Source: Pasteurellaceae bacterium
GTDB taxonomy: Bacteria > Pseudomonadota > Gammaproteobacteria > Enterobacterales > Pasteurellaceae
DNA: 15,185 bases
Assembly (NCBI GenBank): GCA_900756875.1
Contig: CAAELW010000031.1
Location: 1-15,185, forward strand
Direction of reading: 5' to 3'
Shown: piece after piece, positions 1,402-11,292 of the stretch
Layout: each line of letters begins with the position of its first letter
Position numbering within the stretch: the stretch's first letter is position 1
The notes under the pieces: model-generated
Database searches by the model: none
What the model was told of the DNA's origin: nothing
The model's input: only the letters and a program-made list of their open reading frames with translations
Translations under genes and position numbers: made by a program

Positions 1402-1457
1402 AATTCATGAAAAATATTTTTATTTTATTGAAAAAATAACCAAGTGTTTTATGGTTA

Positions 1458-1484
1458 CCTCTATCGTTGTAAGCCAAATAGAGG
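1458..1484 (+). promoter_or_regulatory. Leader hairpin that includes the ABC operon ribosome site
   Basis: Perfect 7-base inverted repeat, CCTCTAT (1458-1464) and ATAGAGG (1478-1484), with a 13-base loop. The 3' arm contains most of the AGAGGA Shine-Dalgarno sequence (1480-1485) used by the ATPase gene at 1493. If folded in the mRNA, it would hide that site, so translation control is possible. Stability is modest (7 bp, large loop). Confidence 0.45.
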
Positions 1485-1492
1485 ATGTAAAA

Positions 1493-2563
1493 ATGGCAAA
1501 GTTAGAAATAAAAAATATTACAAAAAAATTTGGTGACTTTTACGCAGCAAATAATATTACTTTTACCGCGGAAGAAGGCGAGTTTGTCACCTTATTAGGA
1601 CCAAGCGGCTGTGGTAAAACCTCCTTATTAAAATTAATCGCTGGATTTCATGTGGCTGATGAAGGTGAAATCCTTATCGGAGGAAAAAATGTTAACAATG
1701 TTCCTCCAGAAAAACGCAATACAGCCATGTGTTTCCAATCTTATGCCCTTTTCCCTCACCTCAACGTTTCTCACAATATTTGCTATGGTTTAAAACAACG
1801 TAAAATTAATATTGAAGAACAAAAACAGCGTTTAAATCTCGCATTGAAACAAATGGATTTAGAATTTCATAAATTGAAATTACCCAATGAGCTTTCTGGA
1901 GGTCAACAACAACGTGTCGCATTAGCTAGAGCCATGGTCACTCGTCCAGATGTAATTTTATTTGATGAACCGCTTTCCAACTTAGATGCCAAATTACGCG
2001 AAAGTGTACGTTTTGAAATTAAGCAACTCTCAAAACAATATAATTTGACTAGTATTTATGTGACTCATGATCAGGCTGAAGCCCTAACTATGTCAGATAA
2101 AATTATTGTGTTAAATAAAGGTGCTATTGAGCAAATTGGCTCTCCTCAAGATATTTATCATCACCCTAAAAATCGCTTTGTGGCAGATTTTATTGGCATT
2201 GCCAATATCACAGAAGCCAATGTGAAAAACATCGGTGACAATCTTTATGCAGTTAGTTCTATTTTTGGCAATTTCACCGTATTTTCTGAAAGAAAACCGG
2301 AATCGGAACGAATTTATATTTGCTTTCGACCGGAAGACATTGAATTGTTACCAAACACACAAACGGAAGTGGAAAACCAAATTACAGTAGATATCATCAA
2401 CACCGCTTTTATGGGCAATATCACGGAAGTGCAAGGAGTCATTAAACGTAATGATGAAGAGAAAAAATTACGTCTGCAACTAACAAAATGCCCGAATTTG
2501 AGCGATAAACTCACCTTTACGGTTCCCCGCGATGCGATTAAATTCTTGGAGTCCGTAAAATGA
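1493..2563 (+). CDS. ABC importer ATP-binding protein (PotA/FbpC-like)
   Basis: A 356-residue ATPase that would drive import through the two permeases encoded next. All nucleotide-binding motifs are present: Walker A GPSGCGKTS (36-44), Q-loop at Gln82, signature LSGGQQQRVALARA (134-147), Walker B VILFDEP (154-160), D-loop SNLDA (162-166) and switch His192. Residues about 235-350 form a TOBE-type regulatory domain, as in the spermidine, iron(III) and sugar importer ATPases. An in-frame ATG at 1451 exists, but the start at 1493 is chosen because AGAGGA lies 7 bases upstream and the protein then begins MAKLEIKNI, as family members do. The 3' end overlaps the next gene by ATGA. The substrate cannot be told from the ATPase. 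Confidence 0.9.
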   Translation: MAKLEIKNITKKFGDFYAANNITFTAEEGEFVTLLGPSGCGKTSLLKLIAGFHVADEGEILIGGKNVNNVPPEKRNTAMCFQSYALFPHLNVSHNICYGLKQRKINIEEQKQRLNLALKQMDLEFHKLKLPNELSGGQQQRVALARAMVTRPDVILFDEPLSNLDAKLRESVRFEIKQLSKQYNLTSIYVTHDQAEALTMSDKIIVLNKGAIEQIGSPQDIYHHPKNRFVADFIGIANITEANVKNIGDNLYAVSSIFGNFTVFSERKPESERIYICFRPEDIELLPNTQTEVENQITVDIINTAFMGNITEVQGVIKRNDEEKKLRLQLTKCPNLSDKLTFTVPRDAIKFLESVK

Positions 2564-3429
2564 AAAGTCTCAAAAATGATGTAAAAGCATGGTTATTGCT
2601 ATGCAGTGGTTTAGGTACGATCCTATTTTTAATGGGGTCCACGTTCTACATTGTAGTCTCTCAAAGCCTTGGTTTATACAGTATGGGTGGGGAAGAAAGC
2701 CAATTTAGTTTGGAGTATTGGCAAGCCGTATTAAATAGCCCTGTATTCCAAAATTCGTATATTTATTCCGTAAAAGTGTCTTTATTAGGGGCGATTTTAT
2801 CCATCATCGTGGCTTATCCCATTGCCATGTGGTTACGTAAAAAATTACCAGCCAAGGTAACAATTATAACCATCTTGCGGGCGCCTATGTTGGTACCGGG
2901 ATTAGTTGCAGCCTTTTTATTCGTCAATATGATTTCTTACCACGGCATCCTTAACGAAGTATTCGTTTATTTAGGTATTTGGGACGAACCGAAAACCCTA
3001 CAAAATGACGAATTTGGCTGGGGGGTAGTGATTTTACAAATGTGGAAAAACATTCCTTTTGCTTTAATTCTTATTGGTGGCGCGGTCAATTCACTGAAAA
3101 CTGATTTATTAGATGCGGCAGCTAATTTAGGTTCGAGTCCTTGGCAACGTTTTCGTTATGTGATCTTCCCACTAACCTTAGGTGCGGTACAAGTTTCCTT
3201 TATTTTAATATTTATCGGCGCACTCGGTGATTTCGCCTTTTATAGTATTGCAGGTCCTCGTAGTACCTATTCTTTAGCACGTTTAATGCAAATGTCTGCC
3301 TATGAATTTGAAGAATGGAATCAAAGTGCGGTCATGGCATTAACTATTATGTTGACCTCTGCCTTCTTCACCATCCTAGTGTCATTATTGATTAAACCAT
3401 TAGCCGTCAAACGTGGAGAAGTCAAATGA
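2560..3429 (+). CDS. ABC importer permease 1 (PotB-like)
   Basis: A 289-residue inner-membrane protein of the BPD_transp_1 family with about six hydrophobic segments. The first is near residues 10-35, before a sizeable periplasmic loop. The cytoplasmic EAA coupling loop, which docks on the ATPase, is seen in LLDAAANLGSSPWQRFRYV followed by PL. The start codon overlaps the ATPase stop by 4 bases (ATGA), with a TTGGAG ribosome site upstream, so the two are probably translationally coupled. It should form a heterodimer with the next permease. PotB is the closest match in general form, but this fold is shared by polyamine, iron, thiamine and phosphonate importers, so it does not define the substrate. 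Confidence 0.88.
   Translation: MKSLKNDVKAWLLLCSGLGTILFLMGSTFYIVVSQSLGLYSMGGEESQFSLEYWQAVLNSPVFQNSYIYSVKVSLLGAILSIIVAYPIAMWLRKKLPAKVTIITILRAPMLVPGLVAAFLFVNMISYHGILNEVFVYLGIWDEPKTLQNDEFGWGVVILQMWKNIPFALILIGGAVNSLKTDLLDAAANLGSSPWQRFRYVIFPLTLGAVQVSFILIFIGALGDFAFYSIAGPRSTYSLARLMQMSAYEFEEWNQSAVMALTIMLTSAFFTILVSLLIKPLAVKRGEVK
3324..3332 (+). repeat. DNA uptake signal inside permease gene
   Basis: Exact AAGTGCGGT within the coding region of permease 1, unpaired. Its presence suggests this operon has been resident in a competent Haemophilus-type genome, or has been exchanged among such genomes. Confidence 0.85.
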
Positions 3430-4277
3430 GTAGTTCTGTACAAATCACAACGAAAAATGGTCGATTAATCGCACGTATTTCCTTAACGTTCTTTATTCTT
3501 GCTAATTTTATTTGGTTGTTCCTACCCTTTTTAATGGCTGGTTTATGGTCATTGGTAGATCCCGCTAAACCATGGAGTTATCCAGATATTTTCCCTCAAT
3601 CATTATCTTTTGAGCGTTGGAAAATTGTATGGGAAACCACCTCTTTACCTGAAGCAATGTTTAATAGCTATACCATTGCCCCTACAGTTTCGCTGATCAC
3701 TATTTTACTCTCTCTCCCGACAGCTTATGCGTTCGGACGAATGGAGTTTAGAGGTAAAAAATTAGCAGAATTATTAACACTGATTCCATTGGTTATTCCA
3801 GGCATGATTATTGCCCTATTCTTTAGCCGTATGTTATTGGATTTAAATATTAATAATCCATTCATCGGCATTGTTATTGGGCATGTTGTACTCACGTTAC
3901 CTTATGCTATTCGGATTTTATCCGCGGGCTTTTCTTCTGTACCGCAAGACCTTATTGATGCTAGCCGTGACTTAGGTGCATCTAAATTTACCGTTTTCAA
4001 AGACGTGTATATGCCGATGTTAAAACCTAGTTTTTTAGCATCAATTATCTTCTGTTTAGTGAAAAGTATTGAAGAGTTTGCTATCGCTTTCGTTATCGGC
4101 TCACCAGACTTTATTACCGTGCCAACCATTTTATATTCTTTCCTCGGTTATTCTTTTATTCGTCCGAATGCGGCCGTTGTATCGATTATTTTGTTGGTAC
4201 CAAACATTATTTTGATGATGATTATCGAAAAATTGTTGAAAGGGAATTATCTCTCTCAATCCACAGGAAAAGCATAA
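3426..4277 (+). CDS. ABC importer permease 2 (PotC-like)
   Basis: A 283-residue BPD_transp_1 permease with about six membrane segments, partner of the preceding one. The EAA loop is LIDASRDLGASKFTVFKDVY, ending in a conserved Pro at the next helix. It begins in a second ATGA overlap, with GGAG 8 bases upstream of the ATG, again arguing for coupled translation and fixed stoichiometry. The two permeases resemble each other only weakly, as expected of a heterodimeric PotB/PotC-type pair. No ATPase or binding-protein domain is fused to it. Confidence 0.88.
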   Translation: MSSSVQITTKNGRLIARISLTFFILANFIWLFLPFLMAGLWSLVDPAKPWSYPDIFPQSLSFERWKIVWETTSLPEAMFNSYTIAPTVSLITILLSLPTAYAFGRMEFRGKKLAELLTLIPLVIPGMIIALFFSRMLLDLNINNPFIGIVIGHVVLTLPYAIRILSAGFSSVPQDLIDASRDLGASKFTVFKDVYMPMLKPSFLASIIFCLVKSIEEFAIAFVIGSPDFITVPTILYSFLGYSFIRPNAAVVSIILLVPNIILMMIIEKLLKGNYLSQSTGKA

Positions 4278-4296
4278 TTTTCACAAGGAGCATCTT

Positions 4297-5388
4297 ATGC
4301 AAAAAAATATCCGTAAACTTCTATCCATTGGTCTTACCGCTGCCGCCTTGGCTGTCAGTACTTTTGCCTCGGCTTCCACTGACTTAAGTGGTAAATCTTG
4401 GAGTGAAATCGAAGAACTCGCTAAAAAAGAAGGAAAATTGACAGTTAGCGTTTGGTATTTGCAGCCGCAATTCCGTAATTTTGTCAAAGAATTTGAAAAT
4501 CAATACGGTATTAAAGTCAAAGTACCTGAAGGCACCTTGGACGGTAATATCAATAAACTGATTGCTGAAAAAAATCTAGAGACCGGCAAAATGGATGTGG
4601 TTGTGTTAAATGCTGACCGTTTAGGCAACGTAGCGAAAAATGACATTCTTGTAAAACTCAATAACTTACCAAATTTCGATAAATTAAATCACCACTTACA
4701 AGGTGTTGAATTGGGCGATATGGCAGTAGGTTATTGGGGTAACCAAACCGGTCTAGCTTATGATCCTATGCGAATCAAAGAAGAGGAATTGCCACAATCT
4801 TGGGCAGACATGGAAAGCTATATTGATAAAAATCCAAAAAAATTCGGCTATTCAGATCCAAATGGTGGTAGCTCTGGTAATGCCTTCATTCAACGAGCTT
4901 TAGTGTACATCAATGGTGATTATGATTATCGTACCGACAAAATCGATGAAGCACAGATTGCTAATTGGAAGAAAACCTGGGATTGGTTCAGCAGTAAAAA
5001 AGATGCACTAATCCGTACCGCTTCGAATGCTGATAGCCTAACTCGTTTAAACGATGGTGAGTTAGTGATTGTCTCTGCATGGCAAGATCACTTGTTCAGC
5101 TTGCAAAAACAAGGTGCAATTACTGACCGTTTAAAATTCTATGTACCAAAATTTGGGATGCCTGGCGGTGGTAATGTTGTAACCGTAGCAAAAAATGCAC
5201 CGAACCCAGCCGCATCACTTGTTTTCGTGCATTGGATTACCTCACCTGAAGTACAACAGAAATTAAACCAAGAATTCGGTGTTCGTCCACTAAATAGTGA
5301 ATCTGGTTTAAAAGATACTATTTTCTTCTCAACGCCATGGCGTAAAGCCGAAATGGAAGCCTTCACGAAAGAGGTTATTTCGAGATAA
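4297..5388 (+). CDS. Periplasmic substrate-binding protein of ABC importer
   Basis: A 363-residue secreted protein that captures the substrate for the importer. Residues 1-26 are a Sec signal peptide with cleavage predicted after ASA; there is no lipobox Cys, so it should be soluble in the periplasm. The mature part has the two-lobed type II binding-protein pattern: LTVSVWYLQPQFRNFVKEFE near the start, a hinge strand DVVVLNADRL, GYWGNQTGLAYDP, and a C-terminal VFVHWITSPEVQQKLNQEFG. This pattern fits the broad iron/thiamine/spermidine/phosphonate cluster. I do not recognise a characterised relative and will not name a ligand. AAGGAG lies 6 bases before the ATG. The gene follows permease 2 by 19 bases, placing the binding protein last; the separate good ribosome site would allow it to be made in excess. 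Confidence 0.85.
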   Translation: MQKNIRKLLSIGLTAAALAVSTFASASTDLSGKSWSEIEELAKKEGKLTVSVWYLQPQFRNFVKEFENQYGIKVKVPEGTLDGNINKLIAEKNLETGKMDVVVLNADRLGNVAKNDILVKLNNLPNFDKLNHHLQGVELGDMAVGYWGNQTGLAYDPMRIKEEELPQSWADMESYIDKNPKKFGYSDPNGGSSGNAFIQRALVYINGDYDYRTDKIDEAQIANWKKTWDWFSSKKDALIRTASNADSLTRLNDGELVIVSAWQDHLFSLQKQGAITDRLKFYVPKFGMPGGGNVVTVAKNAPNPAASLVFVHWITSPEVQQKLNQEFGVRPLNSESGLKDTIFFSTPWRKAEMEAFTKEVISR

Positions 5389-7000: not shown

Positions 7001-8227
7001 TTATTGTTGCATGCGTGCTTGAATACGTTCTGGCAATCTTAATCCAACGAGAGCAACAAGAACAATTGTCCAGAATAAGGTCACATACACAAGGGCTGAA
7101 CCAAGTCCGACTCTTTCGCTAAGTGCAGCGGCAATCACAGGAGACACCCCACCACCGATCGCAGCGAAGTTATAGATGAAACCAATACCTGTGCTTCGCA
7201 TTTCAGCCGGGAAGAAAGTCGCCATATATTTTGGTACTAAACCGGCAATCCCTAAGTTAGTTGCAAGTAAGAAGAAAAGCAACGCACCAAGTGCTAATAC
7301 ATTATTTTCTGGCAAATAGAATACTGGGAAGAGGAAGAAAAGCGATAACAATAGGCTATATACAAAGGTTTTCTTCTCACCCAATTTATCTCCGATAAAG
7401 CCTGCAATTAAGGTACCGATGAGGATACCAAAGCCTGCCCAGAACATCAGTGATTTCACATTTTCAGCATAGCCGTTTTCTTTGAGGTAAAGTGGAAGTA
7501 AGCCCACTACCGGCCAGTTTACAGAGAAAATTGAATAGCAAACTAAGAAAATAATTAAAGTAATTGGTAATTGTTTTTTAGTGAATAAGTCAGTAAGTGG
7601 AACTTTATTCACTTTACCCGCTGCTTTCGCTTGAGCCCATTCTTCACTTTCAGGGGCATGACGACGAACGTAGAGAACTAAAGCGACTGGTGCTAAACCA
7701 ATAAAGAAAGCCACACGCCAGCCATAAGCTTGTGCAACCCAAGGAATCACTTGAGAAGCAAGAATATTACCGATGGAAAAACCACTCACTAAAAATGCAC
7801 TGGCTTTTGTACGCAAATGTTTTGGCCAGCTTTCAATGGCATAAGAGGAAGAACACGCATATTCACCTGCCATCCCCATACCGATAATCATACGGAAGAT
7901 GAAAAGCCAAATATAACTGGTAGATAAACCGCACAAGAATGTCCCGACGGAATACGTAATAATGGAAACAATCATCGCCAAACGACGACCATATTTATCG
8001 GCAAAACTACCAAAAATCGCCCCACCTAATGGACGCGCTACGAACGCTGCAAGTAATAATGTGGATGTTTCCGTTGTGCTCATGGCAAATTCCTTTTGAA
8101 TATCCAAAAGCACATAAGTGATAAGCATATAATCGAAGCCATCAAAAACATAACCTAACCAAGCCGCAAATAACGCTTTTTTTTGCGTAGGACTGACTTC
8201 TTTATACCATGGTAATGATGTTGCCAT
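7001..8227 (-). CDS. yjhB: MFS sialate-type transporter, YjhB/NanT-like
   Basis: A 408-residue, 12-helix major facilitator that probably imports sialic acid or an anhydro/dehydro derivative by proton symport. I recognise close resemblance to E. coli YjhB: WYKEVSPTQKKALFAAWLGY at the start, VFDGFDYMLI in helix 1, GMGMAGEYACSSSYAIESWP in helix 4, KASAFLVSGFSIGNI, and NLGIAGLVPKY. The MFS loop motif GSFADKYGRR is at 73-82. The start has AGGGAGG 5 bases upstream. It lies divergent from a GntR regulator and a yjhC homologue; in E. coli yjhB and yjhC are neighbours, which strongly supports the role. NanT is also related, so the exact substrate (Neu5Ac, 2,7-anhydro-Neu5Ac or Neu5Ac2en) is inferred from context. 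Haemophilus commonly imports Neu5Ac itself by the SiaPQM TRAP system. Confidence 0.85.
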   Translation of the reverse strand: MATSLPWYKEVSPTQKKALFAAWLGYVFDGFDYMLITYVLLDIQKEFAMSTTETSTLLLAAFVARPLGGAIFGSFADKYGRRLAMIVSIITYSVGTFLCGLSTSYIWLFIFRMIIGMGMAGEYACSSSYAIESWPKHLRTKASAFLVSGFSIGNILASQVIPWVAQAYGWRVAFFIGLAPVALVLYVRRHAPESEEWAQAKAAGKVNKVPLTDLFTKKQLPITLIIFLVCYSIFSVNWPVVGLLPLYLKENGYAENVKSLMFWAGFGILIGTLIAGFIGDKLGEKKTFVYSLLLSLFFLFPVFYLPENNVLALGALLFFLLATNLGIAGLVPKYMATFFPAEMRSTGIGFIYNFAAIGGGVSPVIAAALSERVGLGSALVYVTLFWTIVLVALVGLRLPERIQARMQQ

Positions 8228-8258
8228 AACAACCTCCCTTCCTTGTATTTGAGAATTT

Positions 8259-8274
8259 TGTGGTATAGATCACA
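8259..8274 (+). promoter_or_regulatory. CRP-like site A in the divergent yjhB/GntR region
   Basis: TGTGG-TATAGA-TCACA, 9 of 10 conserved CRP positions. Its centre is about 70 bases upstream of the likely start of the plus-strand transcript, so it would act on the regulator/oxidoreductase operon; it lies downstream of the likely minus-strand start. Confidence 0.5.
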
Positions 8275-8301
8275 GAATTTAAAATCACTGCTAATTTCTG
8301 C

Positions 8302-8329
8302 TTGCATAAATAAAGATAAGACGTATGAT
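8302..8329 (+). promoter_or_regulatory. Candidate promoter of GntR-oxidoreductase operon
   Basis: TTGCAT (8302-8307) and TATGAT (8324-8329) with a 16-base spacer, predicting a start near 8336 and a leader of about 55 bases. The -10 box forms the centre of the palindrome at 8316-8336, so a bound repressor would exclude RNA polymerase. Confidence 0.5.
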
Positions 8330-8341
8330 GTCTTATGTCAA
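8313..8341 (-). promoter_or_regulatory. Candidate promoter of the YjhB-like MFS gene
   Basis: On the minus strand: a perfect TTGACA -35 (8341-8336), a 17-base spacer and TATCTT as -10 (8318-8313). Predicted start near 8306, about 80 bases before the MFS start codon. The spacer is almost entirely occupied by the operator-like palindrome. Confidence 0.65.
8316..8336. promoter_or_regulatory. Palindromic operator candidate for the adjacent GntR regulator
   Basis: Perfect 7-base arms, ATAAGAC (8316-8322) and GTCTTAT (8330-8336), around a 7-base centre. The 21-base dyad length suits a FadR-type GntR dimer. It overlaps the core elements of both divergent promoters, so one bound dimer could repress transport and catabolism together. 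Assignment to this regulator is inferred from position. Confidence 0.6.
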
Positions 8342-8351
8342 TCAGAGAGAA

Positions 8352-8367
8352 TGAGAGCTGGATCACA
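8352..8367 (-). promoter_or_regulatory. CRP-like site B in the divergent region
   Basis: TGAGA-GCTGGA-TCACA, 9 of 10 conserved CRP positions. It is centred about 53 bases upstream of the predicted MFS transcript start, not one of the preferred CRP distances, so activity is less certain than the sequence match. Confidence 0.4.
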
Positions 8368-8389
8368 AATTCAGAAAATAGATTAGAAA

Positions 8390-9112
8390 ATGAGAACAGA
8401 AATGAAAAAAACAAGTAAAAAAGAAGCAAGTCTCGTTTTGCAGGATAAAATCAAATCGCTCATCATTAAACAAAATCTTAAATCCGGCGATTTGATGCCA
8501 ACAGAAAATGAGTTGATTGAACAGCTTGGTGTAAGCCGTTCCAGTTTGCGTGAAGCCATTAAATCTTTAGAGGCGCTACACATTTTAGACATTCGCCATG
8601 GCGTCGGCACCTTTGTGAGTGAATCCTCTCTTGTGCCAATGATTCGCGGATTAAGCTTTCACACCCAACTGAATTTACATAATGATCATAATCAGCTAAT
8701 TAATATTTTGGATATTCGGGAAATTTTGGAATACGGTTTTGCCCCGATGGTTTTAGGAAAAATTAGCCAAGAACAGACCGCACTTTTGCAAAAATCAGTA
8801 GCAAATATGGAGAAAAATGCACGAGAACAAAAGTTTTCACCTAAAGATGAATACCACATTCATTTAAAACTTTATGAACCATTAAATAACCCGTTACTGA
8901 TTCAATATTTAGATGCGTTTTGGCAAATTTATCAGCAAGTAGAAAAAGGCTTACCGCCACCAATACTTTCTCCTGAAAAATTAGCCATGCAACACCGTGA
9001 ATTAATTGATGCCGTGGAAGCGCATGATTTGGTACGCATGCAACGCGCGATCTTGCAATATTTCCAAAGTATTCGCCAACGCTTACAACAAGGAGGGCAT
9101 GATGCAAACTAA
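8390..9112 (+). CDS. FadR-subfamily GntR transcriptional regulator
   Basis: A 240-residue DNA-binding regulator. Residues about 14-76 are the GntR winged helix-turn-helix, with the hallmark MPTENELIEQLGVSRSSLRE and a wing ending in HGVGTFV. Residues about 100-232 are an all-helical FCD-type effector domain. Aligning the FCD pattern on NNPLL and HREL puts Glu154 where the metal-binding Asp is usual and Tyr224 where the last His is usual; His158 and His202 are kept. The ATG at 8390 and one at 8402 are both possible starts; neither has a strong ribosome site. It overlaps the next gene by 11 bases and is divergent from the YjhB-like carrier, so it is the likely local repressor, released by a sialate-derived effector. 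It is not identifiable as E. coli NanR, though NanR belongs to the same family. Confidence 0.85.
   Translation: MRTEMKKTSKKEASLVLQDKIKSLIIKQNLKSGDLMPTENELIEQLGVSRSSLREAIKSLEALHILDIRHGVGTFVSESSLVPMIRGLSFHTQLNLHNDHNQLINILDIREILEYGFAPMVLGKISQEQTALLQKSVANMEKNAREQKFSPKDEYHIHLKLYEPLNNPLLIQYLDAFWQIYQQVEKGLPPPILSPEKLAMQHRELIDAVEAHDLVRMQRAILQYFQSIRQRLQQGGHDAN
8777..8785 (-). repeat. DNA uptake signal inside GntR gene
   Basis: Exact complement of AAGTGCGGT within the effector-domain coding region of the regulator, unpaired. Confidence 0.85.
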
Positions 9113-10175
9113 TGGATTAAACATTGCCTTAATCGGCTGCGGCTTTTTTGGCGTTCAACTAGCTTCCGCATTTGACAAAGCCCAAGCAAACTTAATTGCA
9201 GTGACCGATATCAATCCTTCTCTTGCACAAAAACTCGCAGACCAATACGGCAGCCAAGCTTTTTTTAGTGTAGAAGAAATGTTGGCAGAAACTAAACCGG
9301 ATTTAGTGGTCATCGCCACTCCAAACTATGCTCATTATTCTCCGGCTATTTTGGCTTTAAATGCGGGTTGTCATGTCTTTATTGAAACACCTTTTACCTT
9401 AAGCTCCTCCCAAGGCCAACATTTACGCCGTCTTGCTGAAGAAAAAGGCAAATTCATTTTTGTGGGCCATTTAGAGCGTACGTTGCCAGGCATGTTGAAA
9501 GTCAAAGCGGCTTTAGAACAAGGAAAATTAGGCAGAATTACGGTCGCACGAGCCATGCGTCAGCGTTGGATTGAAAACCTACCAAACAAAGAGTGGTGGA
9601 AATTAGATGCCAATCTTACGGGCGGCGAGCTTTTCCACCTCATTCATGAACTGGATTTACTCTGTTGGTTACTAGGAGATATTGATGCGGTCTTTGCTCA
9701 AGCGGCTAACCAAGCGCATCACGATACGCCAGACAGCCGTGATGTGTTGCAGTTGCTATTACGTTTTAAAAATGGCGTATTAGGTTCGCTCGAAATGGGC
9801 ACTGCTTATCGATTACACCAATGGGGCATTCAAATTCATGGTGAAAATGGTGTGATTGAAGTCAATTTCTTTACCTCAAGTGTCACATTTAATTATCTAG
9901 ATGGAAAAATAGAACACGTTGATTTATTTGATGAATTTGAGGCTGATTTATCTTTACGCGAAAGTGCCAAAGGCACACAGCAATATAATGTCACCCACGC
10001 ACCTTGCCAACTTTGGTTAAGCCGAGCCGCTGAAATCGAAGTACAAAGCGTGGTGGAGCACTTAACGCAAGGAAAAACCAGCCCATTAAGTCTATGTTTA
10101 ACTGAAGCCATCGAAGTTGCAGAAGCAGCGAAGCAATCCATGGTAACGGAAAAACAAATCTCAGTGAAAAAATAA
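9102..10175 (+). CDS. Gfo/Idh/MocA-family oxidoreductase lacking the EKP lysine
   Basis: A 357-residue NAD(P)-dependent dehydrogenase-like protein. The N-terminal Rossmann fold shows GCGFFG (12-17) and an acidic Asp36 at the end of strand 2, which favours NAD over NADP. The family EKP motif reads ETP at 95-97, so the catalytic Lys is Thr96 (codon ACA, one base from AAA). The C-terminal domain keeps GGELFHLIHELD (174-185), matching the corresponding stretch of the YjhC homologue. Start: of two adjacent ATGs, 9102 fits best, with AGGAGGG ending 4 bases upstream; 9099 would be too close. It overlaps the regulator by 11 bases and precedes the yjhC gene by 10 bases, so it is co-transcribed and probably works on a related sugar acid or partners YjhC. 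The precise reaction is unknown, and activity without the Lys is open. Confidence 0.82.
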   Translation: MQTNGLNIALIGCGFFGVQLASAFDKAQANLIAVTDINPSLAQKLADQYGSQAFFSVEEMLAETKPDLVVIATPNYAHYSPAILALNAGCHVFIETPFTLSSSQGQHLRRLAEEKGKFIFVGHLERTLPGMLKVKAALEQGKLGRITVARAMRQRWIENLPNKEWWKLDANLTGGELFHLIHELDLLCWLLGDIDAVFAQAANQAHHDTPDSRDVLQLLLRFKNGVLGSLEMGTAYRLHQWGIQIHGENGVIEVNFFTSSVTFNYLDGKIEHVDLFDEFEADLSLRESAKGTQQYNVTHAPCQLWLSRAAEIEVQSVVEHLTQGKTSPLSLCLTEAIEVAEAAKQSMVTEKQISVKK

Positions 10176-10185
10176 GGAGTTTATT

Positions 10186-11292
10186 ATGATGCGATATGGT
10201 GTTGTTGGCGTTGGCTATTTTGGTGCGGATTTAGCCCGTTTCATGAATGAATTTGATGATGCACAGATTACAATGGTATACGACCCTGAAAATGGTGAAA
10301 CCATTGCTCAAGAATTACAATGCGTAGCGGCAAAATCTCTTGACGAATTGGTCACTTCCCCTGATGTGGATTGCGTGATTGTTGCCACCCCAAACTACTT
10401 ACACAAAGAACCGGTCATCCTTGCAGCAAAAAACAAAAAACATGTTTTCTGTGAAAAACCAATTGCCTTAAGTTATCAAGACTGTGACGACATGGTACGC
10501 GCTTGTGAAGAAAATGGCGTCACCTTTATGGCTGGCCATGTGATGAACTTCTTTAACGGTGTTCACCATGCCAAAGAATTAATCAATCAAGGCGTGATCG
10601 GTAAAGTGCTTTATTGTCACACTGCACGTAACGGCTGGGAAGAACAACAACCGACTATCTCATGGAAAAAAATCCGTGAAAAATCTGGCGGCCACTTATA
10701 TCACCATATTCACGAATTAGACTGCGTACAATTCATTATGGGGGGCATGCCAAAAACTGTTACCATGGCAGCCGCCAATGTTGCACACAAAGGCGAAAAC
10801 TTTGGTGATGAAGACGATATGATTTTTGTCACCATGGAATATGATGATAATCGCTTCGCAGTTCTAGAATGGGGTTCCGCTTTCCGTTGGGGTGAGCATT
10901 ATGTATTAATTCAAGGGGAAAAAGGTGCGATCAAACTTGATATGTACAATACCAAAGGTACCCTTCGTGTGGATGGAAAAGACACCTATTTCCTTATTCA
11001 CGAAACCCAAGAAGAAGATGATGACCGTACCCGTATTTACAACAGCACAGAAATGGACGGTGCGATTCAATACGGTAAACCGGGTAAACGCACACCGTTA
11101 TGGTTGAGCTCTATCATGAAAAAAGAAATGCGTTATTTAAACGATATTCTTCATGGAATGGAACCAACTGAGGAATTTGTAAAATTACTCACCGGTGAAG
11201 CTGCCCGCGCTGCTATCGCTACTGCCGATGCATGTACCCGTTCTCGTTACGAAAACCGCAAAGTTGAGTTGGCAGAAATCATCGGTAAATAA
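10186..11292 (+). CDS. yjhC: YjhC/NanY-like NAD-dependent anhydrosialate oxidoreductase
   Basis: A 368-residue cytosolic Gfo/Idh/MocA enzyme strongly resembling E. coli YjhC, which converts 2,7-anhydro-Neu5Ac and 2-deoxy-2,3-didehydro-Neu5Ac to Neu5Ac, using bound NAD transiently with no net redox change. Matching stretches include VVGVGYFG (NAD loop, Gly8-Gly10-Gly13), VYDPENGE after strand 2 with Asp33, VATPNYLHKEPVI, KHVFCEKPIALSY (EKP at 90-92), FMAGHVMNFFNGV, SGGHLYHHIHELDCVQ (167-182), LEWGSAF and VHETQEEDDD-like acidic text. Lys91 and His176 are the obvious catalytic candidates. Start at 10186: AAGGAG 6 bases upstream, and the N-terminus then matches the E. coli length. It is the last gene of the operon, before a dyad terminator. 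The product would enter the nan pathway, which is not in this window. Confidence 0.9.
   Translation: MMRYGVVGVGYFGADLARFMNEFDDAQITMVYDPENGETIAQELQCVAAKSLDELVTSPDVDCVIVATPNYLHKEPVILAAKNKKHVFCEKPIALSYQDCDDMVRACEENGVTFMAGHVMNFFNGVHHAKELINQGVIGKVLYCHTARNGWEEQQPTISWKKIREKSGGHLYHHIHELDCVQFIMGGMPKTVTMAAANVAHKGENFGDEDDMIFVTMEYDDNRFAVLEWGSAFRWGEHYVLIQGEKGAIKLDMYNTKGTLRVDGKDTYFLIHETQEEDDDRTRIYNSTEMDGAIQYGKPGKRTPLWLSSIMKKEMRYLNDILHGMEPTEEFVKLLTGEAARAAIATADACTRSRYENRKVELAEIIGK

Follow-up and report, generated by a model that had tools for sequence, protein, structure and literature searches.

What does a second oxidoreductase do in a locus that already encodes an enzyme for anhydro-sialic acids? The question is raised by a 15,185-nt stretch of DNA from a Pasteurellaceae bacterium (contig CAAELW010000031.1 of assembly GCA_900756875.1; here called the window), in which nanX and nanY, the transporter and oxidoreductase genes of a sialic acid scavenging cassette, are accompanied by genes for a regulator of the GntR family (hereafter GntR) and for a protein of the Gfo/Idh/MocA fold that we call OxA. 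We favour the view, at a probability of about 45%, that GntR and OxA form a regulator–sensor pair that would induce the cassette, with OxA as the sensor subunit, because OxA is strictly paired with GntR across two transporter types, has lost a catalytic lysine while conserving its pocket, and accompanies a regulator with an altered ligand site.

As the original prediction had claimed from the bare sequence, a carrier, a regulator, a Gfo/Idh/MocA gene and a YjhC homologue are present, each as an open reading frame and each with its family name backed by family scans. The first of them, nanX (7001..8227, minus strand), codes for a YjhB/NanX-type transporter of the major facilitator superfamily (MFS) for 2,7-anhydro-N-acetylneuraminic acid (2,7-anhydro-Neu5Ac or 2,7-AN). 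It is divergent from three genes on the plus strand: the FCD-type GntR regulator (8390..9112), OxA (9099..10175) and nanY (10186..11292), an orthologue of YjhC and of RgNanOx from Ruminococcus gnavus that by homology would convert anhydro-sialic acids to Neu5Ac. The likely start of OxA, ATG 9099, is preceded by AGGAGG and opens the last 14 nt of the GntR gene, so the two proteins are probably translated together; a gap of 10 nt separates OxA from nanY. Its genes mark the region as a cassette for scavenging anhydro-sialic acid, with NanX and NanY as the standard pair. The products of the four cassette genes in loci L001, L002, L003 and L006 (three of H. parainfluenzae, one of Haemophilus sp.) are 97.8–99.7% identical to those of the window, which on this likeness is DNA of the Haemophilus parainfluenzae group.

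OxA and the regulator it accompanies

Family scans as well as a structure model and fold search place OxA in the Gfo/Idh/MocA fold: PF01408, PF22725 and PF02894 all lie above cut-off, corresponding to a Rossmann domain with the GxGxxG motif and a C-terminal alpha/beta domain. Identity to E. coli NanY is 27% (BLASTP) and to the adjoining NanY 29%. What marks an active enzyme of the NanOx type is nevertheless missing. At the position of the EKP lysine (K93 of RgNanOx; Thr97 in the window, counted from ATG 9099 like all OxA residues here), 32 distinct orthologues carry Thr (29), Val (2) or Pro (1), and the wider family of 57 members of at least 340 aa carries Thr (51), Val (4), Pro (1) or Ser (1). 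The lysine is thus lost in 57 of 57, while 49 of 49 homologues outside the OxA family keep it. The position of RgNanOx His176 is never His, being Leu (14), Glu (16) or Gln (2) in the 32 orthologues and Glu (43), Leu (7) or Gln (7) in the 57. Because both residues are absent from all 32 distinct orthologues, OxA is not plausible as a second NanY-type enzyme; an extra oxidoreductase had been predicted, which holds for the fold and probably not for NanY-type activity.

The protein is otherwise well preserved. Gly13, Gly15, Gly18, Asp37, Thr74, Asn76, Lys168 and His183 have been retained, and across the 32 orthologues 103 positions do not vary. A ratio of nonsynonymous to synonymous substitution rates (dN/dS) of 0.055 and 0.039 in two pairs indicates purifying selection and led us to reject a decaying gene; in an Aggregatibacter pair synonymous sites are saturated and yield no ratio for OxA or NanY. 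A local duplication of NanY was likewise rejected, since the two proteins fall in separate clades of the tree. OxA (12 sequences, support 99) groups with P0088 and an EKP-bearing clade from Actinobacteria and metagenomes that carries a HEIHELD-type motif (for example P0088, P0066, P0089 and P0092), its nearest relatives at a support of 100; P0064, P0080 and others join at a support of 88. The EKP lysine that OxA lacks is present in all 36 homologues P0064–P0066 and P0080–P0113, four of which (P0091, P0099, P0110 and P0112) fall on the NanY side of the tree.

The company that OxA keeps was surveyed in 140 Pasteurellaceae genomes, one per species, with orthologue cut-offs of E ≤ 1e-90 for NanY, 1e-60 for OxA, 1e-40 for GntR and 1e-120 for NanX. 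NanY was found in 38 genomes, OxA in 33, GntR in 33 and NanX in 16. OxA and GntR occur in the very same genomes, all of which also have NanY, and OxA directly follows GntR on the same strand in 33 of 33. The layout of the window, with NanX divergent from GntR-OxA-NanY, is found in 15 of the 140 genomes and is therefore not a chance arrangement. A second layout, in 17 of the 33, lacks NanX and has NanY on the opposite strand, 5.1–5.5 kb away; 11 of these 17 loci were mapped and hold, between GntR-OxA and NanY, a carbohydrate-type ATP-binding cassette (ABC) importer (ATPase, binding protein and two permeases, with gene names taken from one locus, L083) in a series that ends in NanY, and strand and spacing suggest the same importer in the other six. 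The third layout, that of genome G033 only, has GntR-OxA convergent with NanY and beside a divergent NanX, so that the first and third layouts make up exactly the 16 NanX genomes and NanY lies on the other strand from the pair in 18 of 33. It is this separation by strand, distance and importer genes that shows OxA to stay with GntR and not with NanY. The predicted four-gene cassette is accordingly a recurrent arrangement, though not a fixed one, as 17 of the 33 genomes with the pair are without NanX.

The regulator itself combines a GntR winged helix with an FCD domain (PF00392 and PF07729 above cut-off), as does E. coli NanR. It is, however, 21% identical to NanR (BLASTP), and its 87.3 bits on the NanR model, against a cut-off of 260, place it outside that family; the cassette has a regulator of its own, as the original prediction had it. 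In the text of the NanR study, D172, H176, H222 and H244 are named as the ligands of Zn and Neu5Ac (PMC8012715). Across the GntR family, in an alignment of 44 rows of which two have a gap and some are near-identical or come from one genome twice, D172 corresponds to Glu (42), H176 to His (40) or Gln (2), H222 to His (25) or Tyr (17) and H244 to Tyr (42). With D172 replaced by Glu, H244 by Tyr and H222 often by Tyr, GntR is without the complete Zn and Neu5Ac site of NanR.

Several loci depart from these layouts. Five genomes with NanY (G004, G013, G037, G118 and G119) have no match to GntR or OxA, and none to NanX at E ≤ 1e-120. In G037 (locus L081) NanY adjoins rimM and a tRNA m1G methyltransferase gene, neighbours that G118 (L092) shares by clustering. 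The H. parainfluenzae cassette of G004 is a deletion remnant (L008 7644–8981, L101) in which the equivalents of window positions 7361–10098 and 10159–10428 are gone and the ends of nanX and nanY are left. The ATPase of the cassette ABC importer reads as two open reading frames in L079 (9361–10463) and L088 (10203–11303), by a frameshift or a sequencing error.

A recurrent palindrome upstream of GntR

Between nanX and GntR lies a palindromic candidate operator for GntR, AAGACGTATGATGTCTT (8318..8334). It falls within the spacer of a nanX promoter-like site (TTGACA-17-TATCTT, minus strand, 8313..8341, matching 10 of 12 positions), a placement that would be expected of a repressor site. The promoter-like site is a consensus match of a kind that shows no excess in the window (three, against 4.1 in shuffles). 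Two CRP-like sites on the plus strand, TGTGGTATAGATCACA (8259..8274) and TGAGAGCTGGATCACA (8352..8367), each with one mismatch, stand on either side of the palindrome; they too are consensus matches, common by chance, with 11 in the window against 7.1 expected at up to two mismatches. The repeat unit of NanR sites, GGTATA, occurs once in the gap (8262–8267) without forming a tandem repeat, and six times in the window against 4.5 expected.

Even when three mismatches are allowed, no other site in the window matches the pattern of the palindrome. Read on both strands, this one site gives two matches against 0.49 expected, a number reached by 30 of 200 shuffles. What carries weight is that the pattern recurs in different genera and is rare elsewhere. 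Allowing one mismatch at most, it is found in the 400 nt upstream of GntR in 25 of the 33 genomes with GntR-OxA and nowhere else in those 25, and it is present somewhere in 6 of the 107 genomes without the pair; a reversed control pattern matches 13 of 140 genomes, against 31 of 140 for the true one. Pattern and matrix were derived from the same loci, which makes presence there partly a matter of construction. Among the eight pair genomes without such a site, six (G077, G090, G092, G103, G106 and G134) have a matrix site of 16.5–21.4 bits and G033 a weak one, the matrix scoring having left out G082. Two matrix matches fit poorly with a GntR operator, one of 16.9 bits in L092, from a genome without the pair, and one of 15.1 bits away from GntR in L090.

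Some ABC-type loci carry two operator-like palindromes, 22–25 bp apart, upstream of GntR: L088 (11385–11423), L090 (6992–7030), L086 (7165–7204) and also L079, L085, L087 and L089.

Sensor, enzyme or helper

In the proposed mechanism, intramolecular trans-sialidases (IT-sialidases) of other organisms would release 2,7-anhydro-Neu5Ac. By homology, NanX would import it, NanY would convert it with NAD+ to Neu5Ac via a 4-keto intermediate, and the product would be degraded through the nan operon, which lies elsewhere in the genome. GntR would most likely bind the palindrome at 8318–8334 and so keep its own operon repressed along with the divergent promoter of the transporter. OxA would most likely be a pseudo-oxidoreductase of altered catalysis whose ligand is the anhydro-sugar, or else a keto or NAD(H)-bound product, and which passes the signal on to GntR. 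According to the text of PMC7315737, repression by E. coli NanR is apparently lifted neither by 2,7-AN nor by Neu5Ac2en (2,3-EN), which would make a dedicated switch useful; with one, the cassette could be induced by a compound to which the NanR of E. coli is apparently blind.

This reading builds on direct observations of gene content, co-occurrence, residue loss and palindrome recurrence. In its broader form, which we hold slightly more tentatively, a former sugar dehydrogenase would have lost its catalysis and would now bind the ligand as co-regulator for a GntR repressor that has itself ceased to sense it, creating an anhydro-sialic-specific switch that serves two unrelated transporters. 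A co-regulator of the Gfo/Idh/MocA fold is known in yeast Gal80, a eukaryotic protein that acts on Gal4; OxA may play a comparable part, what is seen of it being linkage and residue loss.

The main rival, nearly as likely as the sensor role, is that OxA serves this pathway as an accessory enzyme whose chemistry does not depend on the EKP lysine and which acts, for example, on another imported form such as N-glycolylneuraminic acid (Neu5Gc), O-acetylated species or 4-keto species leaking from NanY. Three observations that weigh against the sensor role would sit comfortably with an enzyme. Lys168 and His183 (K163 and H178 of RgNanOx) hardly vary, as might equally be the case in an altered enzyme; in 15 of 33 genomes NanY is the next gene after OxA and has the same orientation, as would be expected of an enzyme; and a transporter is linked no less constantly than GntR, so that OxA could serve the metabolism of what is imported. 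On the other hand, the loss of the EKP lysine throughout the family, the absence of His at the His176 position and a genome set that equals that of GntR and not that of NanY all speak against an accessory enzyme.

Further points count against a sensor. FCD-type GntR proteins that sense ligands without a metal exist, and metal-binding FCD proteins are called a small family in the text of PMC8012715. The K93A variant of RgNanOx is reported to lose activity as well as NAD+ binding (PMC7535918), which weakens any version in which OxA senses NAD(H). In a regulon test on G033 the best site, in the NanY-NanX gap and the sole one above 8 bits in 19 kb, scored 8.3 bits against a mean of 9.3 for the best site in shuffled copies and is not significant over the whole 19 kb. 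The ligand, the contact between OxA and GntR, and repression and DNA binding are all elements that we infer.

Much less probable is that OxA is a structural helper of NanY, as partner subunit or chaperone in a mixed oligomer. The two proteins share a fold and a distant common ancestry, and RgNanOx is described as a dimer (PMC7535918), but purified YjhC and RgNanOx are reported to be active alone (PMC7315737, PMC7535918), NanY occurs without OxA in five Pasteurellaceae genomes (one of them the deletion remnant), and in 18 of 33 it is encoded on the other strand. Least probable of all is that the cassette acts on a substrate other than anhydro-sialic acid, since, although the anhydro-sialic roles of the window proteins are assigned by homology, NanY and NanX are 66% and 51% identical to characterised E. 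coli proteins, NanY keeps its full catalytic set, 10 of 10 aligned transporter sequences carry NanX-type residues, and each of the 11 genomes from the nearest genus has a nanA that passes the family cut-off.

The predicted scavenging route and its wider setting

The predicted YjhB-like carrier is borne out in detail. NanX (408 aa) aligns with E. coli NanX (405 aa) at 409 bits and with NanT at 40% identity and 348 bits (BLASTP); NanT is longer (496 aa), and its middle is unmatched by the window protein. The positions reported to separate the two transporters are hydrophobic residues at 228 and 321, Asn232 and Thr268 in E. coli NanX numbering, where NanT has Ala, Gln, Ser and Cys (PMC13398819). 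The window has I233, N237, T272 and L325, the NanX set and not that of NanT, as do all ten aligned Pasteurellaceae sequences, the window among them and shorter sequences left out. We therefore regard the protein as a probable anhydro-sialic acid transporter of the NanX type. E. coli NanX is reported to carry 2,7-AN and neither Neu5Ac2en nor Neu5Ac (PMC10955332); it has also been credited with Neu5Ac2en transport (PMC7315737).

The YjhC homologue is borne out as well. Best PDB matches of NanY are 6z3b (E 3.9e-190) and 6o15 (2.9e-174), and its 66% identity to E. coli NanY agrees with the high identity expected of a NanOx, for which Bell et al. used at least 49% to RgNanOx (PMC7535918). Mutation at each of K93, K163, H175, H176 and H178 is reported there to abolish RgNanOx activity. 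Because all five equivalents are kept in 35 of 35 NanY sequences (36 before the truncated G004 remnant, L028, was dropped), the chemistry predicted for the window protein, NAD+-dependent conversion of 2,7-anhydro-Neu5Ac to Neu5Ac, is of a known kind.

The original prediction placed the cassette alongside the usual uptake of Neu5Ac by a tripartite ATP-independent periplasmic (TRAP) transporter, which does not hold for the nearest genus: no SiaQM match was found in 10 of its 11 genomes at E ≤ 1e-100, and no SiaP match in nine at E ≤ 1e-20. G008 alone has SiaQM and a close SiaP, the SiaP match in G010 being 31% identical. BNR_2, the single sialidase model used, gave no match in these 11 genomes. 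With SiaQM in one, a close SiaP in one and BNR_2 in none of the 11, bacteria of the H. parainfluenzae group probably live on anhydro-sialic acid made by others. Other importers of Neu5Ac may be present, such as members of the sodium symporter family, which occur in 11 of 11, or an ABC system of the SatABCD type. In G001, the nearest genome, the nan operon (L100 4773–11917) has the order nanE, nanK, an RpiR-type regulator gene (siaR), nanA, nagB and nagA, with nanA named by family cut-off and the others by resemblance. It adjoins a IIBC gene of an N-acetylglucosamine (GlcNAc)-specific phosphotransferase system, in whose place the H. influenzae-like G114 presumably has siaPQM. G004, with its deleted cassette, keeps nanA and has no SiaQM match.

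Two neighbouring systems lie outside the cassette. In G001 a sodium:solute symporter gene of the NF007790 family, presumably YidK, stands beside an arylsulfatase-like gene (L103 1155–4398), perhaps for sulfated sugars. In the window itself, an ABC operon (1451–5388; ATPase, two permeases and binding protein) is present in L001, L002 and L006 and absent at the corresponding position of L003 and L008; it was therefore rejected as a cassette part and appears to be a variable island. Its best NCBIfam matches are of several kinds, polyamine- or phosphonate-like, and all below cut-off.

Scavenging by NanX and NanY is of a known kind. E. coli nanXY (yjhBC) encodes the same transporter and oxidoreductase families, but there the two genes are adjacent on one strand and described as under NanR (PMC7315737), whereas the window has a divergent nanX, a different GntR and OxA in addition. 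The nan cluster of R. gnavus (SAT2, RgNanOx) and the NanOx clusters of Bell et al. (2020) likewise combine NanOx with an anhydro-sialic transporter, and the NanOx of H. haemoglobinophilus was expressed and found active on 2,7-anhydro-Neu5Ac (PMC7535918), so that the idea of scavenging by a Haemophilus is itself published. No GntR-OxA pair is described in the passages of that study that were searched; a figure legend mentions unspecified regulators, and its Figure 8 may draw a similar gene order. In the titles, abstracts and text passages searched, we found no description of the dedicated GntR, the OxA family, the palindrome or the exchange of MFS and ABC transporters, and to that extent the arrangement is undescribed, as had been supposed. 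New here are this regulator, the OxA family with its lysine loss, the finding that OxA and the regulator occur in exactly the same genomes, the palindrome that the loci share and the transporter swap.

Kentache et al. report growth of E. coli on 2,7-anhydro-Neu5Ac or Neu5Ac2en only with NanR inactivated (PMC7315737). The cassette would show one natural way for a bacterium to detect the anhydro form itself, and it offers a ready case for asking whether an oxidoreductase fold can become a bacterial transcriptional co-regulator. For the commensals of the H. parainfluenzae group, which keep nanA and mostly have no SiaQM match, it may mean that they depend on the IT-sialidases of their neighbours for sialic acid carbon.

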